Source of the DNA: Bacteroidales bacterium
Lineage (GTDB): Bacteria; Bacteroidota; Bacteroidia; Bacteroidales; GCA-2748055
Assembly (NCBI GenBank): GCA_029210725.1
Contig: JARGFM010000017.1
Location: 1-64,000, forward strand
Direction: 5' to 3'
Length of the DNA stretch: 64,000 bases
The notes beneath the pieces were generated by a model that was not told the origin of the DNA, did not search any database, and saw nothing but the letters and a program-made list of their open reading frames with translations. How positions within the stretch are numbered: position 1 is the stretch's first letter; each line of letters starts with the position of its first letter. Positions 1,237 to 59,354 of this stretch are shown one piece after another. The translations under genes and the position numbers were made by a program.

Positions 1237-1321
1237 GATCCCGGGCAGAACCCAGGCCAGGATCCCGGGCAGAACCCAGGCCAGGATCCGGGGCAGAACC
1301 CTGATCAGTATCCCGGGCAGA
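1237..1321. repeat. 24-bp tandem repeat, about 3.5 copies
   Basis: Units start at 1237, 1261, 1285 and 1309. The first two are identical (GATCCCGGGCAGAACCCAGG followed by CCAG). The third and fourth diverge (GATCCGGGG…, TATCCCGGG…). Direct head-to-tail copies without spacers, between two convergent genes. Confidence 0.9.
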
Positions 1322-39274: not shown

Positions 39275-40846
39275 CTAGCGCTTTAACACGAGCAGTCTCT
39301 CCGTCTGCCAATAACTTCCGGTATGCAGGTGCAGCAGGTAGATGCCGGGTTCCAGGTGATCCAGGCGCAGCTCCAGCGGGGATCCGGACCAGGGCAGGGT
39401 GTTCCGGTTCAGAATTCGGCCATCCGGAGAGTAAAACATCAGTTCCAGCGGTCCGGGGGGAAGCTGGTCCGCAGCTATCCATATGGCCTGCGTGGCCGGA
39501 TTGGGATAGATCCGGAACCGCGGCGCCTCTTTCTCAGGGATGGATGTTTCATAGGCATTCAGCTGAATATCCAGGAGGCTTGCCTGGTAGTCGTTTACCG
39601 TCACCGCCTGGAGGGTGTCGTTGAAGTAACCCGGAGAGGAGACAAGCAGGTCGTAAACCCCTTCCTTAATCAGCCTGTAGAAATCACCGTGAGTTTCGGA
39701 GCTGTACACCACCGAGCTGGTGGTGTCGTGGTCCTCCACCGAGATTCGTGCCTTCAGCGGGGCGCCGCTCTCCCGGTCGCTCACCTTCCCCCGGATCCCG
39801 TAGAGGCACTGCGAAATATAGTTGATCAGGGAGCGCCGGTTAATGTCCCAGTGATGTTCCAGTTCTGCCGAGGGCAGAAGAAATTCGTCCGACAGTTCCA
39901 GGGTCACCTCCCTGCCTCCCAGGTAGTAATTCACATAGTCCTGACGGGTCCCCAAGGCCACGTACCAGTCCCAGCCGTTGGTGATTCCGTCGTCGGGCCA
40001 TCCCCACATATAGTCGGGATCCACCGCCATGGCCTCATCAGCATATTCCCTGGAGATAAAACGGTACCAGTTATCATCCACATGCCGTACCGGAGTGTGG
40101 TCCCAGGGATAGTTCACCACTTCGGCTCCGTTGTGCAGGTTGGCCGACAGGGTGAAACGGTGCTCCCTCAGGAATTCCATCATATACCTGTTCTCCAGGG
40201 CCCGGCCTGTGGTATCATCGGCTTCGCCACTCCCCGGGTTCGGGAAGTCCCGGTTCAGATCGGTTCCGTCCCTGGCGTTGCGCACCGAATTCCGCAGTGA
40301 AAGGTTGTTATCCTTGGAAAAGCTGCCATCGGGATTGGCCAGGGGATTGATCCATATCTGCAGTCCATCCACCAGGGTACTTATCTCGCTGTCCGTGCCA
40401 TAGCCACTGAGCAGAGTGCCGGCAAGGCGCAGCAGCAAAACGAATCCTGCCACTTCGTTGCCGTGCATGGTGGAGCTGTACAGAAAGTTGGCCTCGGCTT
40501 CATCCTCTCCCACCCGGTCGCTGATCTTCAGGGCCAGCAGCAGCCTTCCCTCCTGGGAGCGGCCAAAGGTGTCGAGCCTGCAGATTTCCGGGTAGGAGGA
40601 GGCAAAGCCCTGCATCATCTCCAGGTACTGGTCGTAGGTGGGATATTTCAGGAAGGTGCGTGCTTCGGTCAGGTCGAGGGCCATATCACTGTCGTCGAAA
40701 CGGACCGACTTGGTCCATTGTGCATGCCCGGGAGCAACTGCCAGGAGGACCGGGAGGACAAACAGGAGCAGCTTCAGGGAAGCGTTGCGGACCATCCGGC
40801 GCCCCATCATACTCCGGCGCCCCATCATACTCCGGCGTCCCATCAT
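39275..40846 (-). CDS. M14 zinc carboxypeptidase with T9SS tail
   Basis: 523 residues from the first ATG. The real start may be the ATG at 40795 (MVRNASLKLLLFVLPVLLAV… signal peptide), because the first 17 residues are DNA-repeat-derived (MMGRRS twice, then MMGRR). Peptidase M14 domain: zinc ligands in STMHGNEVAG (His, Glu) and the His of SANLHNGAEVVNYPWD, Arg in DLNRDFPN, catalytic Glu in VTLELSDEF. Then a carboxypeptidase-regulatory/CnaB-like domain (GIRGKVSDRESGAPLKARIS) and a type IX secretion sorting domain (FRIYPNPATQAIWI … GIYLLHLHTGSYWQTERLLV). It is exported and probably surface-bound or released. The first ATG overlaps the ychF stop (ATGA). Confidence 0.92.
   Translation of the reverse strand: MMGRRSMMGRRSMMGRRMVRNASLKLLLFVLPVLLAVAPGHAQWTKSVRFDDSDMALDLTEARTFLKYPTYDQYLEMMQGFASSYPEICRLDTFGRSQEGRLLLALKISDRVGEDEAEANFLYSSTMHGNEVAGFVLLLRLAGTLLSGYGTDSEISTLVDGLQIWINPLANPDGSFSKDNNLSLRNSVRNARDGTDLNRDFPNPGSGEADDTTGRALENRYMMEFLREHRFTLSANLHNGAEVVNYPWDHTPVRHVDDNWYRFISREYADEAMAVDPDYMWGWPDDGITNGWDWYVALGTRQDYVNYYLGGREVTLELSDEFLLPSAELEHHWDINRRSLINYISQCLYGIRGKVSDRESGAPLKARISVEDHDTTSSVVYSSETHGDFYRLIKEGVYDLLVSSPGYFNDTLQAVTVNDYQASLLDIQLNAYETSIPEKEAPRFRIYPNPATQAIWIAADQLPPGPLELMFYSPDGRILNRNTLPWSGSPLELRLDHLEPGIYLLHLHTGSYWQTERLLVLKR
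40796..40846. repeat. 18-bp tandem repeat at the carboxypeptidase start, 2.8 copies
   Basis: Plus-strand unit ACTCCGGCGCCCCATCAT at 40811 and 40829 with a partial copy before. Read on the minus strand each unit starts with ATGATG, so the array supplies a series of in-frame start codons between the ychF stop and the signal peptide. Confidence 0.88.
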
Positions 40847-41940
40847 ACATTAAATCTGATGTGAAGAATATCGGCCTCCTCCACCACGTAGTTTTTTCCT
40901 TCCACCGATAATTTGCCCTTATCCTTGCAGGCCTGCTCCGAGCCCAGGGTAATAAAATCTTCATACTTCATCACCTCGGCACGGATAAACCCGCGCTGCA
41001 GGTCCGAGTGTATGGCCCCGGCCGCTTCGGGGGCCAGGGCACCCTTCCGGATGGTCCAGGCCCGGATCTCTTTGGGGCCCACGGTGAAAAAGGAAATCAG
41101 GTTCAGCATGGAGTAGGCCGATCGTATGAGCTTGCTCACCCCCGGCTCTTCCAGTCCGGCATCGGCCAGGAAGGCTTTGCGGTCTTCCTCGTCCTCCAGT
41201 TCGGCAATCTCCGATTCCAGACGGGCCGCCAGCACCAGGATCTCGGCCTTTTCGCCGGCCAGGTATTCCTTTACCTGATCCACATAGGCGTTGCCTGCGA
41301 TGGCCGCCTCATCTTCCACGTTGCACACATACATAAGCGGCTTGCTGGTCAGCAGAAAGAGGTCTTCAATATATTTACGGTCCGTTTCGCTCACTTCCAG
41401 GGTACGGGCATTCTGAAAATCTTCCAGGTGGTCCTTATATCTTGCCAGCACTTCGAGCCCTCTTTGGGCATCCTTATCCCCTGTTTTGGCAATCCTGGCC
41501 AGCCGTTCCATCTTTTTTTCCACCGACTCGAGGTCCTTGACCTGCAGTTCCAGGTTGATGGTCTCCATGTCGCGGACCGGGTTCACCGATCCGTCGATAT
41601 GGGGCAGCTGTTCGTCATCAAAACACCGGATCACCTGAATCAGGGCATCGGTATTCCGGATATCGGAGAGAAACTTGTTGCCCACACCTTCTCCCTGGTT
41701 GGCCCCCCTGGCGAGTCCGGGGATATCCACAATTTCGACAGAGGCCGGGATGATCTTTTCAGTGGGCTGGAAATTCTCCAGCTTATAGAGCCTGGGTTCT
41801 GGCACATTCACCATTCCAACATTGGACTTACTGGAGGTAAAGGCAAAGCTGGAAGTTTCCACCCTGGTATTGGACATACAGTTGAAGAGTGTGGATTTGC
41901 CCACGTTGGCTACCCCGATAATCCCGCATTTTAGTGCCAT
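40843..41940 (-). CDS. ychF: Ribosome-binding ATPase YchF
   Basis: 365 residues, Obg-like P-loop protein that prefers ATP. GVANVGKSTLFN (P-loop), DIPGLARGANQGEGVGNKFL (G3 region), the NVED specificity motif in place of NKxD, and the C-terminal TGS-like domain ending ADILHIRFNV. It associates with ribosomes and with stress responses. It is divergent from transketolase, with a -7 element at 41958-41965, and its TGA overlaps the carboxypeptidase ATG. Confidence 0.97.
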   Translation of the reverse strand: MALKCGIIGVANVGKSTLFNCMSNTRVETSSFAFTSSKSNVGMVNVPEPRLYKLENFQPTEKIIPASVEIVDIPGLARGANQGEGVGNKFLSDIRNTDALIQVIRCFDDEQLPHIDGSVNPVRDMETINLELQVKDLESVEKKMERLARIAKTGDKDAQRGLEVLARYKDHLEDFQNARTLEVSETDRKYIEDLFLLTSKPLMYVCNVEDEAAIAGNAYVDQVKEYLAGEKAEILVLAARLESEIAELEDEEDRKAFLADAGLEEPGVSKLIRSAYSMLNLISFFTVGPKEIRAWTIRKGALAPEAAGAIHSDLQRGFIRAEVMKYEDFITLGSEQACKDKGKLSVEGKNYVVEEADILHIRFNV

Positions 41941-55293: not shown

Positions 55294-55983
55294 ATGGAAA
55301 CGGGCGACTATAAATTACTGATCGTGGACGATGAGGAGGATCTTTGCGAAATTCTCCAGTTCAACCTGGAAGGAGAGGGTTTCCAGGTGGAAGTGGCCTA
55401 TTCGGCCAGGGAGGCTCTGAAGAAAGATATGGAATCCTTCCATCTTATTCTGCTGGATGTGATGATGGGGGAGATGTCGGGCTTCAAGCTGGCCAAGTTG
55501 CTCCGGAAGGAGCGCGGGCTGTCCGTTCCCATCATATTTATTACCGCCAAAGCCGCCGAGGATGAGTTACTGACCGGTTTCAGCCTGGGAGCCGACGACT
55601 ATATTACAAAACCCTTTTCCATCAAGGAGCTGATTGTCCGGGTAAAAGCCGTCCTGAAGAGGACTTCCCGGGAAAAGCCCGGGGGAAAGTCGTCCGTCAC
55701 GGTAGATGACCTGGTTCTGAATCTGAAGAAGCGAAAACTAAAGATCAAAAAAGAGGAGATTGAGCTCACCCGGAAGGAGTTTGAAATACTCACCATGCTG
55801 GTGAAAGCCGAAGGCCATATTCATTCCAGGGAGGAGATCCTGGAGCGTGTATGGGACGAAGACGTGGTGGTCAGCAAGCGGACCGTGGATGTACATATCA
55901 CCCACCTGCGGAAAAAAATGGGAAGCTACGGGAAATACATCAAGAACAAACAGGGCTATGGCTATGCCTTTGAAAAAGATTAG
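55294..55983 (+). CDS. OmpR/PhoB-family response regulator
   Basis: 229 residues. Receiver with DDEED (12-16), phospho-acceptor D55 (LLDVMMGEMSG), T85 and K106 (TKPFS); C-terminal winged helix about 130-228 (ELTRKEFEILTMLVKAEGHI; SKRTVDVHITHLRKKMG). The next gene is its kinase. PhoB-like, but without a visible phosphate gene nearby. Confidence 0.95.
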   Translation: METGDYKLLIVDDEEDLCEILQFNLEGEGFQVEVAYSAREALKKDMESFHLILLDVMMGEMSGFKLAKLLRKERGLSVPIIFITAKAAEDELLTGFSLGADDYITKPFSIKELIVRVKAVLKRTSREKPGGKSSVTVDDLVLNLKKRKLKIKKEEIELTRKEFEILTMLVKAEGHIHSREEILERVWDEDVVVSKRTVDVHITHLRKKMGSYGKYIKNKQGYGYAFEKD

Positions 55984-55987
55984 TTCC

Positions 55988-57739
55988 ATGAGTTTCAGGC
56001 AGCGTTTATTTCTTTCTTTTTCAGCCATTTTTACAGTTTTTACCCTCCTTGTCCTGGTTTTCCAGTACGAGCGCGAGAAGAATTTCAAGAAACTGCAGCT
56101 GGAAAGCACCCTGGATAATATCACGGAGATTGCTCATAAATATTTGGAAAACAAAGCGATTACCCGCTCGGGCCAGTATATGCTCATGGACTCTATTCTG
56201 GAAATCCTTCCGGCCCGGAACATCCGCCTGACCATGACCGACCGGGGGGGTACCGTGTTGTACGACAGCGAGGTTCCGGATTACAGCTCCATGGAAAACC
56301 ATTTGAGCCGGACTGAGTTTCAGGAGGCACTGGAATCCGGTTCGGGCGGAAATATCAGAAAATCGACCACCACCGGGAAAAGTTACTACTATTATGCGAA
56401 ACGTTACCCGGAATACTATATCAGAACCGCAACCCTCTATGATGTGGGGATCAGGGACCTGCTGAATGTGGAGAGTCTGTTCATTTTCTACCTGGCCCTG
56501 CTCTTCCTGGCGACCTCCATTGTCCTGTTCTATATGACCCGGAGGTTTTCGGAGACCATTAATAAACTTAAGGATTTTACGATCCGCCTGCGCGGCGGCG
56601 AGGAGATCAATGAATCGTTCCAGTTTCCCAAAGATGAACTGGGGATCATTAGCACCCAGATCACATCCTTATACAAGGATTTTAATGATGCACGGAAGAA
56701 GCTGGTGATCGAGAAGAACAAATTGTACAGCCATCTGAGCGTCCTAAACGAAGGGATTGCGTTTTTCTCCCCGCAGAAGGAAAAAGTGCTGGCCAACAAC
56801 CATTTTATACAGAACCTGAACCTGCTGTCGGAAAAGTCGGCCCTTACCGCCGAAAAAATATTCAAGATCCGGGAGTTAAGACCGGTGATAAAGTTTATCG
56901 ACCGGCACCTGGAGGAATCCAGTATGCTCCAGGAGGACGAGCTTCCACATATGGACATGGATCTGCAAAAGGGCAACCGCTACTTCAATGTGAAGTGCTT
57001 CTTTTTCCAGGATAAAAGCTTTGAGATCGTCATCCTGGATACGACCAAACTGGAGAAGCGAAAGCTGATCAAGCAGCAGATGACCTCCAATATTGCCCAT
57101 GAACTGAAAACGCCTGTGGCCACGGTGATGGGATATCTGGAGAGCATCCAGCATGAAAGCATCACACCTGAAAAGAAAGATTACTTCGTGGAGAAGGCTC
57201 ATGCCCAGGCTCAGCGCCTCTCGGAACTGATCGATGATCTCTCCACCCTCAACCGGATTGAGGAAGCAGGCGAGTATTATGAGTTAAATCCCGTATCCAT
57301 AACGCAGGTGGTGGAGGAGGTCCGGGAACAGCTGAGAATGAAACTGGACCAACACCATATCCAGGTACATCTGGATCTTCCCGGGAAACTGGAAATCGAA
57401 GGAAACAGATCCCTGCTGTTCTCCATCTTCTATAACCTCTTCGATAACGCGATCAAATACGGGGGCGATCACATCCAGATCTTTCTTTCCAGCTACCTGG
57501 AAGATAAAAAGAACTACTACTTCTCCTTTGCCAACACAGGTAAGGGTATCGATGACATCCACCTGAACCGCATCTTTGAAAGGTTTTACAGGATCGACGA
57601 CGGACGTTCCAGGAAGACCGGCGGGACCGGCCTGGGCCTGGCCATCGTGAAGAACGCCATCCAGCTGCATAACGGCGAGATCTCCGCCAGGAATTACAGG
57701 GACGGGGGACTGGAGTTCCTCTTCTCCCTGGAAAAGTAG
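55988..57739 (+). CDS. PhoR-like sensor histidine kinase
   Basis: 583 residues from the ATG at 55988, 4 bp after the regulator stop (an ATG at 55964 would overlap it). Membrane helices at about 7-26 and 163-184 flank a periplasmic sensor (27-160). HAMP (185-235), PAS-like (245-352), HisKA NIAHELKTPVATVMG (H371), N-box NLFDNAIKYG (N487), NTGKGID, and the lid GGTGLGLAIVK. All catalytic boxes are intact, unlike the hybrid kinase at 26688. A 21-bp repeat array follows directly. Confidence 0.94.
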   Translation: MSFRQRLFLSFSAIFTVFTLLVLVFQYEREKNFKKLQLESTLDNITEIAHKYLENKAITRSGQYMLMDSILEILPARNIRLTMTDRGGTVLYDSEVPDYSSMENHLSRTEFQEALESGSGGNIRKSTTTGKSYYYYAKRYPEYYIRTATLYDVGIRDLLNVESLFIFYLALLFLATSIVLFYMTRRFSETINKLKDFTIRLRGGEEINESFQFPKDELGIISTQITSLYKDFNDARKKLVIEKNKLYSHLSVLNEGIAFFSPQKEKVLANNHFIQNLNLLSEKSALTAEKIFKIRELRPVIKFIDRHLEESSMLQEDELPHMDMDLQKGNRYFNVKCFFFQDKSFEIVILDTTKLEKRKLIKQQMTSNIAHELKTPVATVMGYLESIQHESITPEKKDYFVEKAHAQAQRLSELIDDLSTLNRIEEAGEYYELNPVSITQVVEEVREQLRMKLDQHHIQVHLDLPGKLEIEGNRSLLFSIFYNLFDNAIKYGGDHIQIFLSSYLEDKKNYYFSFANTGKGIDDIHLNRIFERFYRIDDGRSRKTGGTGLGLAIVKNAIQLHNGEISARNYRDGGLEFLFSLEK

Positions 57740-58256
57740 CGTGGCGGCCCCCGGACAGTTTAGTTTGATCCCCGGAATGTTCATCCAGTCTCCGTACTGT
57801 TTTGTTTGGTCCCCGGACAGTTTGGTTTGATCCCCGGACAGTTTGGTTTGGTCTCCGGACAGTTTAGTTTGGTCTCCGGACAGTTTAGTTTGATCCCCTG
57901 ACTGTTTAGTTTGATCCCCTGACTGTTTAGTTTGATCCCCTGACTGTTTAGTTTGATCCCCTGACTGTTTAGTTTGGTCCCCGGCTTGTTCAGGATTTTG
58001 TGAACGGGAGGATCGCATCGGTTTCTTGGAGGGTTTAAAGAGGGTTGGGGGGGTCGTTTCCCAAAATTTGGAGCGAACAAGGCTGTTACATTTTGTGATT
58101 ATGTTGCATTTCTTATTTTCTTAACCTTTCACGGAGAGTCTTGTAACAGTCACAAATACAATGAGATATAAAACATCAGGCCTGAAATGGCAGATAAATG
58201 GGAAGTAATAGTATTAACAGGATATAACCTGGTTGTTACCACCAAAAAACCGGAAA
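57740..58256. other. 517-bp spacer, mostly a 21-bp repeat array
   Basis: Bases 57749 to about 57990 are the array. From 57990 to 58256 the sequence is ordinary AT-rich leader with no clear hairpin, tRNA or exact TAnnTTTG (nearest is TACATTTTG at 58088-58096, one base too long). Frames over the array on the minus strand are open only because the unit has no stop. Confidence 0.8.
57749..57990. repeat. 21-bp tandem repeat, about 11 copies
   Basis: The largest array of the window. Core unit CCCCGGACAGTTTAGTTTGA followed by T, with sub-variants (CCCCGGACAGTTTGGTTT…, CTCCGGACAGTTTAGTTT…, CCCCTGACTGTTTAGTTT…). Variants are grouped: the four CCCCTGACTG copies are contiguous and identical, which indicates stepwise local amplification. 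There are no spacers, so this is not CRISPR. Confidence 0.95.
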
Positions 58257-59354
58257 ATGAATACCCCCTTTCTTTCCTTCGGGCAGATGTCTGAATTGTT
58301 CAACGTGGAGCATGATTGGCTTTTTGAGAAGTTCCTGGGAAAGTTGAATTCGCACAGGCATTTAATACTCACTGCGGATCAGCACTGGGGGATACAGCAA
58401 TATGTAGAAGAACTGGGATTCCAGCTGGAAGAAAAGCACCGGGATATCCAAATCTGTTATATAGATGTGAGACTGGCTCAGACATCTGCATCCTTTCTCG
58501 ACCTCTTCCAGACCATGCTCCGTCAAAAATTCCAAGAGGTGGTACAAGTGGAAGAAGTCCCCTCTGGCAGTGTGGCATCGCTCAGGCTGCCCTCTGTCAT
58601 AGCCCGAAAAAAAAGAATTCGTGTGGGGGTCTTCCTGTCCAATGTCCATTTGTTTCACCGCTTCAGGGATGCAGATTCCTTCCTGAGAATATTCAGACGA
58701 TATTCCATAAATCAAAAGAATTGCATTTTCTGCCTCTATGGTATTAATACGGTTCATTTCAGGAAACTGGTCCACGCTCCCGGCCCCCTTTCCGGCCTGG
58801 GCCAGCTTTTTGAGTTAAGGCACGATCCTGCAAAACACCGGTCTGCCGGCATTAGAAAGCTTTTCCACGAAAACAATAAAAGGATGGGCTATCAAATTTC
58901 GATCCTGATGTCCTACATCGTAGACAACCATCCATTCTATCTGAAGCTTTTTGCCTGGCATGTATTGATCAGGACCCGGAACCAGTGTACAATGAAGATC
59001 ATGGACGTGGCATTGAATGATCTTCTCCTTCATTTTGAGCCTCAATTCCTAAAGACCGTGGAAAAACTAACACCCAGGCAGTTAAATTATTTGCATGCCC
59101 TGGTGAAGGAAGGTTCTAAACTCTGTTCTCAGAAAACCATGAAGGCTTACCAGCTTGGATCGTCCGGTCATGTCTCCCGGATTAAACAAAGCCTGGAAAG
59201 CAAGGAAATCATTGACACAGGCGGCCATACCACTGTTTTTGCGGATCCTCTTTTCAGAGAATGGCTTAAAAACCGCTATTTCAAATCCGGCTCGCTGCTG
59301 CATCCCGGCTCGCTGCATCATCGCCGGAGGACCCCGGTGATCTCCCCCATGTAG
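58257..59354 (+). CDS. STAND-like pseudo-ATPase with winged helix
   Basis: 365 residues from the ATG at 58257 (a TTG eight codons earlier is not preferred). The layout resembles the archaeal-type/STAND AAA ATPases common in Bacteroidetes: an N-terminal NTPase-like region, a DNHPFYLKLFAWH helix (223-235) and a C-terminal winged helix (270-340; LTPRQLNYLHALVKEG … YQLGSSGHVSRIKQSLESKE). But the P-loop position reads LILTADQHWGIQQYV (36-50) with no GKT/S, and the Walker B strand reads RVGVFLSNVHLF with no acidic pair. So it probably does not hydrolyse ATP and may be a DNA- or partner-binding protein. The C-terminus contains an 18-bp duplication and overlaps the convergent gene by 37 bp. Confidence 0.7.
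   Translation: MNTPFLSFGQMSELFNVEHDWLFEKFLGKLNSHRHLILTADQHWGIQQYVEELGFQLEEKHRDIQICYIDVRLAQTSASFLDLFQTMLRQKFQEVVQVEEVPSGSVASLRLPSVIARKKRIRVGVFLSNVHLFHRFRDADSFLRIFRRYSINQKNCIFCLYGINTVHFRKLVHAPGPLSGLGQLFELRHDPAKHRSAGIRKLFHENNKRMGYQISILMSYIVDNHPFYLKLFAWHVLIRTRNQCTMKIMDVALNDLLLHFEPQFLKTVEKLTPRQLNYLHALVKEGSKLCSQKTMKAYQLGSSGHVSRIKQSLESKEIIDTGGHTTVFADPLFREWLKNRYFKSGSLLHPGSLHHRRRTPVISPM
59288..59323. repeat. 18-bp tandem duplication in the pseudo-ATPase 3' end
   Basis: CGGCTCGCTGCTGCATCC (59288) is followed by CGGCTCGCTGCATCATCG (59306). It codes for the GSLLHP/GSLHHR pair beyond the last conserved residues and ends just before the overlap with the flavin reductase-like gene. Confidence 0.7.

Follow-up and report, generated by a model that had tools for sequence, protein, structure and literature searches.

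The window examined here is a 64 kb stretch at the start of a Bacteroidales contig (C17), and its largest tandem array lies between a two-component regulatory gene pair and the leader of the gene that follows. The features discussed below are as follows.

55294..55983, + strand: OmpR-type response regulator gene
55847..57739, + strand: PhoR-like histidine kinase gene with HisKA, HATPase_c and weak sCache_like matches; the true start is probably downstream of 55847
57284..58018, − strand: 244-aa open frame, unlikely to be a gene, that crosses the array and continues antisense to the kinase
57749..57984, + strand: 21-bp tandem array, unit CCCCGGACTGTTTAGTTTGAT and variants, 11 copies with copy 2 degenerate
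57770..57789, + strand: degenerate copy 2, 20 bp, one base short, with a shift of register
57895..57978, + strand: homogeneous 3′ block, four copies of CCCCTGACTG type, placed last in the presumed order of events
58045..58260, + strand: leader of the downstream gene, with conservation in relatives; does not include the array
58260..59354, + strand: gene for a 364-aa product that has no Pfam match above cut-off, described in the earlier note as a pseudo-ATPase

Tandem Repeats Finder (TRF) reports the array with a period of 21, 11.3 copies, 85% matches and a score of 283. Both its score and its length are the greatest among the arrays of the window, as the earlier note had claimed for its length, and the highest score in 50 dinucleotide shuffles of the whole window is 73. 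The kinase stop codon (57737-57739) lies 9 bases 5′ of the array, whose other end is about 60 bases short of the conserved leader (58045); this bears out its placement between the stop codon and the next gene's leader. The count of eleven copies stands, with ten of 21 bp and the degenerate copy of 20 bp; the end point first given, 57990, falls a few bases past the last recognisable copy, and the TRF end is 57984.

Variants within the array are clustered. Copies 4-5 have TTTGG in common, copies 6-7 CTCC, and copies 8-11 CCCCTGACTG. Four identical copies, as described previously, are found in 11 of the 21 possible registers; in the CCCC register there are three identical 21-mers and a fourth with one base difference. 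When the ten full copies were permuted (copy 2 was dropped), the summed difference between neighbouring copies, 18, was reached in 519 of 20,000 random orders (p about 0.026). The clustering is moderate, and it supports the earlier suggestion of stepwise local expansion.

Four congeners have a kinase ortholog with an intact 3′ end (61-71% identity); a fifth ortholog, that of G003, is truncated by the end of its contig and is outside this comparison. The array is absent from the 700 bases 3′ of the kinase in all four. DNA homology with the nearest relative, G013, stops at 57734 and restarts at 58045, and the array therefore fills a spacer at a synteny break. The nearest relative has about 5.3 kb of other DNA between the homologous kinase end and leader. 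Elsewhere in the same order, a 21-bp array of 8.6 copies with a different unit is present in G026 (L131, 1600-1779), about 2.5 kb behind a kinase of 39% identity.

Within the genome that carries it (3.81 Mb, 70 contigs, 98.6% complete), the unit matches well at this one place. A degenerate form of the 21-mer gives 14 genomic matches at up to 3 mismatches, 10 of them inside the array, and the reversed pattern gives 2. A two-unit pattern is found in one of 18 genomes of the genus, that of the array itself, and in none of the 17 congeners. No tandem unit pair was found in named genome contigs, a set from which close relatives of the window may be missing, and blastn gave no match to the unit in plasmids or phages. 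The dispersed genome-wide repeat that the earlier note raised as a possible finding was thus searched for in the array's own genome and not found, and we rule it out. A MITE is likewise ruled out, since array and flanks occur once in the genome; terminal inverted repeats were sought to the right of the array. A comparison within the Bacteroidota is BrickBuilt, described as a minisatellite-bearing MITE of Porphyromonas gingivalis with internal tandem repeats of 23 nt, 19 genomic copies, a leader, a tail and terminal inverted repeats (PMC4596501). By that account it resembles the array in host phylum and internal tandem repeats, and differs from its single occurrence in copy number. The contig is unlikely to be a contaminant: RNase G and Lnt, each present once in the genome, are both on it. 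The composition of the contig is near that of the genome's other stretches, two of its pieces being the lowest apart from L039.

We consider it likely, with a probability of roughly 0.7, that the array is a private, locus-specific intergenic minisatellite that grew by slippage and for which no function need be invoked. It consists of head-to-tail repeats at a single locus, within the roughly 10-100 bp unit range of minisatellites and scoring above chance. Bacterial minisatellites and VNTR loci likewise have repeats of about 20 bp at one intergenic locus with copies clustered by similarity, and in these features the array shows no essential difference from them; the array density on this contig is, by comparison, unusual for the genome. 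Slippage between short repeats is discussed as a mechanism for small variable segments in PMC2884548. On such a model, 21 bp of the spacer that follows the kinase stop codon would have been duplicated first, at a site where the nearest relative has other DNA. Slipped-strand replication or unequal exchange between copies would then have extended it stepwise, and the 3′ block would be the latest expansion. The array may be tolerated because it sits where one gene has ended and the conserved leader of its neighbour has yet to begin, and it is probably functionless in itself. Among the roles proposed previously, that of "simply an unstable tract" is the best fit, since the array is private and missing from all four congener flanks; its copy number is presumably unstable. 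Taken by itself, the locus is an unexceptional VNTR candidate, of use at most as a strain marker.

The surroundings of the array are rich in repeats along the contig as a whole, a point beyond the earlier note. The window and the next 20 kb of the contig (84 kb, C17:1-84000) contain 19 arrays with a score of at least 60 and 11 with a score of at least 100, against 12 and 0, respectively, in 39 stretches from elsewhere in the genome (765 kb on 24 contigs). Array density is about 14 times that of the sampled 765 kb, and the binomial p is about 1e-11 at each threshold, for comparison stretches that were picked non-randomly, by contig number, and cover one fifth of the genome. Almost every place on C17:1-84000 has a different unit. 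A regional excess of arrays in this genome is likely.

An excess across the genus, weaker than that on this contig, is possible. Thirty congener loci related to the contig (332 kb) have 23 arrays scoring at least 100, with 6 outside long frames, whereas 58 control stretches (944 kb) have 12, with 1 outside long frames (p 0.0017 for the non-coding excess). Related loci match the contig in at least one gene, several of them in one or two. L132 and L133 were dropped as without homology to C17, L153, with 7 C17 hits, was shifted from the control to the related set, and L131 is in neither set. The main array was booked as coding in this comparison, since the antisense frame covers 86% of it. Much of the excess in relatives consists of repetitive tails of conserved genes, such as the rpL17 tail, and non-coding counts are given for that reason; some of these tails are presumably SSB linkers. 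The array could thus be the largest product of a ribosomal-protein/RNase G segment that is prone to new minisatellites, many of them at gene junctions and every one with a separate unit; the instability would then be genus-wide, with no single array common. We put this forward tentatively, as a doubtful proposition. No title among the literature matches listed concerned minisatellite hot spots in bacterial chromosomes. Taken with its setting, the array is most likely a rather unremarkable repeat within chromosomal DNA that is unusually rich in repeats, and the regional density is the part worth following up. If the excess holds, causes of slippage such as replication, transcription and repair could be compared between neighbouring segments of one genome.

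At 40795-40848 an 18-bp array spans a gene junction and repeats the beginning of the frame that follows, with MMGRRS present three times. Arrays on two different contigs, at window 1237-1321 (GATCCCGGGCAGAACCCAGGCCAG) and in contig C3 (L041, 310-371; GATTCCGGGCAGAACCCAGGTCAG), have almost identical 24-bp units; one unit at least is thus dispersed.

The main rival to a private minisatellite is that the array is an orphan end of an IS21-family element, an amplified terminal repeat carrying IstA binding sites whose element body has been lost. Read from outward to inward the unit is TGTTTAGTTTGATCCCCGGAC, which would place the lost body to the right. IS21 loci of the same order were examined because one half of the unit, TTTGATCCCC, resembled IS ends. 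IstB matches at E <= 1e-40 are present in 34 of 198 genomes of the order, and 13 of 30 istB-side flanks, some of them short, carry tandem repeats of 21-24 bp. Fifteen of 20 loci could be oriented by motif and represent 10 distinct elements (the 5 unoriented loci were left out); 9 of these 10 have tandem 21-24 bp end repeats. One of them (L228) has a 21-bp unit in 11.7 copies with the first copy 144 bases behind istB, similar to the array in layout, and in three identical IS21 copies of G155 the end array starts 5 bp inside the common element boundary. Arrays of 5 to 11.7 copies with units of 21-24 bp were seen at L228/L250 (G219:C74), L251 (G190:C184) and L262 (G155:C1). These exceed the two repeats per end given for the IS21 prototype in PMC10122671. 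The literature searched yielded no paper on IS21 tandem repeats in Bacteroides.

The similarity extends to a TGAYCCCC half. The core TGA[CT]C[AC]CC is present in 4 of the 15 array rows of period 18-26 from IS21 loci; of 83 rows from other places, this array alone has it. The core was, however, chosen after both sides had been seen. When the unit was scored against 20 IS21 end units, its mean score was reached by 114 of 2000 shuffles and its best match by 947 of 2000, and the array ranks fourth of 83 on mean score, below other arrays; overall unit similarity is not significant, the score failing to set the array clearly apart from shuffles. The layout of tandem 20-24 bp repeats at a boundary is that of an IS21 end, but no istA/istB gene or remnant was found beside the repeats or elsewhere in the contig (the best match has E 0.021 and is short), no inverted partner array is present in the genome on either strand, and the search of named genome contigs for a tandem unit pair was, as noted, negative. 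The IstB element that this genome does have carries different repeats. We therefore regard an orphan IS21 end as unlikely.

Exact-pattern scans made for the IS21 comparison gave nothing or gave matches judged unrelated. Fifteen exact-pattern stretches were judged unrelated to the array; nine of them, from Cytophagaceae, Spirosoma and Aquirufa, have in common one stretch that is coding in appearance, L060 has an unrelated 31-bp repeat, and a single viral contig match appears to be chance. No IstA/IstB-like frames were seen by eye in L060 or L071. A count of TTGATCCC-type motifs was set aside for its poor control, as CTAG, which is rare, forms part of the reversed pattern. The one strong IstB hit of the genome is at L039 (contig C60), behind an IstA-like frame and a frame that we take to be ParB-like; three spaced copies of GATTGTAAATGGGACCCCG lie upstream.

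The earlier note also suggested that the array is a transcript 3′ end. Starting just past the stop codon, it would be well placed to terminate the kinase message loosely or to stabilise it, and its + strand has four terminator-like stems against 1.3 +/- 1.1 in shuffles. The stems are weak, however, being rich in G-U pairs and having no real T run; folding is no better than in shuffles on either strand (z 0.11 and 1.18), and the array is missing in relatives. With neither a folding excess nor an Rfam match, the array does not resemble a structured or described RNA, and we consider a transcript 3′ end improbable. No sigma-70-like site was found at the array, and the region has no match to TTTG-N-TANNTTTG, the Bacteroidota-type promoter consensus.

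Still less probable is a protein-binding array, for example one for the adjoining OmpR-type regulator. The array adjoins the regulator/kinase pair, and its 21-bp phase, equivalent to two helical turns, is constant over most of its length, but the phase is broken by copy 2, the unit has 4 other genomic sites when up to 3 mismatches are allowed and the reversed pattern has 2, and the unit is not conserved in congeners. This proposal of the earlier note found no positive support. A repetitive antisense protein built on the heptapeptide SGDQTKQ can be practically discounted: the 244-aa frame does span the array, with variant positions mostly at third codon positions (a hand count, estimated not to be significant), but it runs on as kinase antisense, its best Pfam score is 17.8 bits against a cut-off of 30, copy 2 shifts the frame, and a second − strand frame is likewise open.

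In relatives, the conserved leader downstream of the array has palindromes at comparable positions, near −190 and −43 relative to the gene start (window 58045-58260; L127, L133-L137). Their letters differ among orthologs while the palindromic form is kept. G008 has AGTCACCA/TGGTGACT at both places, G011 has AGTCATAA/TTATGACT and G002 has AGTAACAG/CTATTACT; those of the array's own genome are degenerate. To judge from this pattern, the palindromes look like a pair of autoregulatory operators changing in step with their protein.
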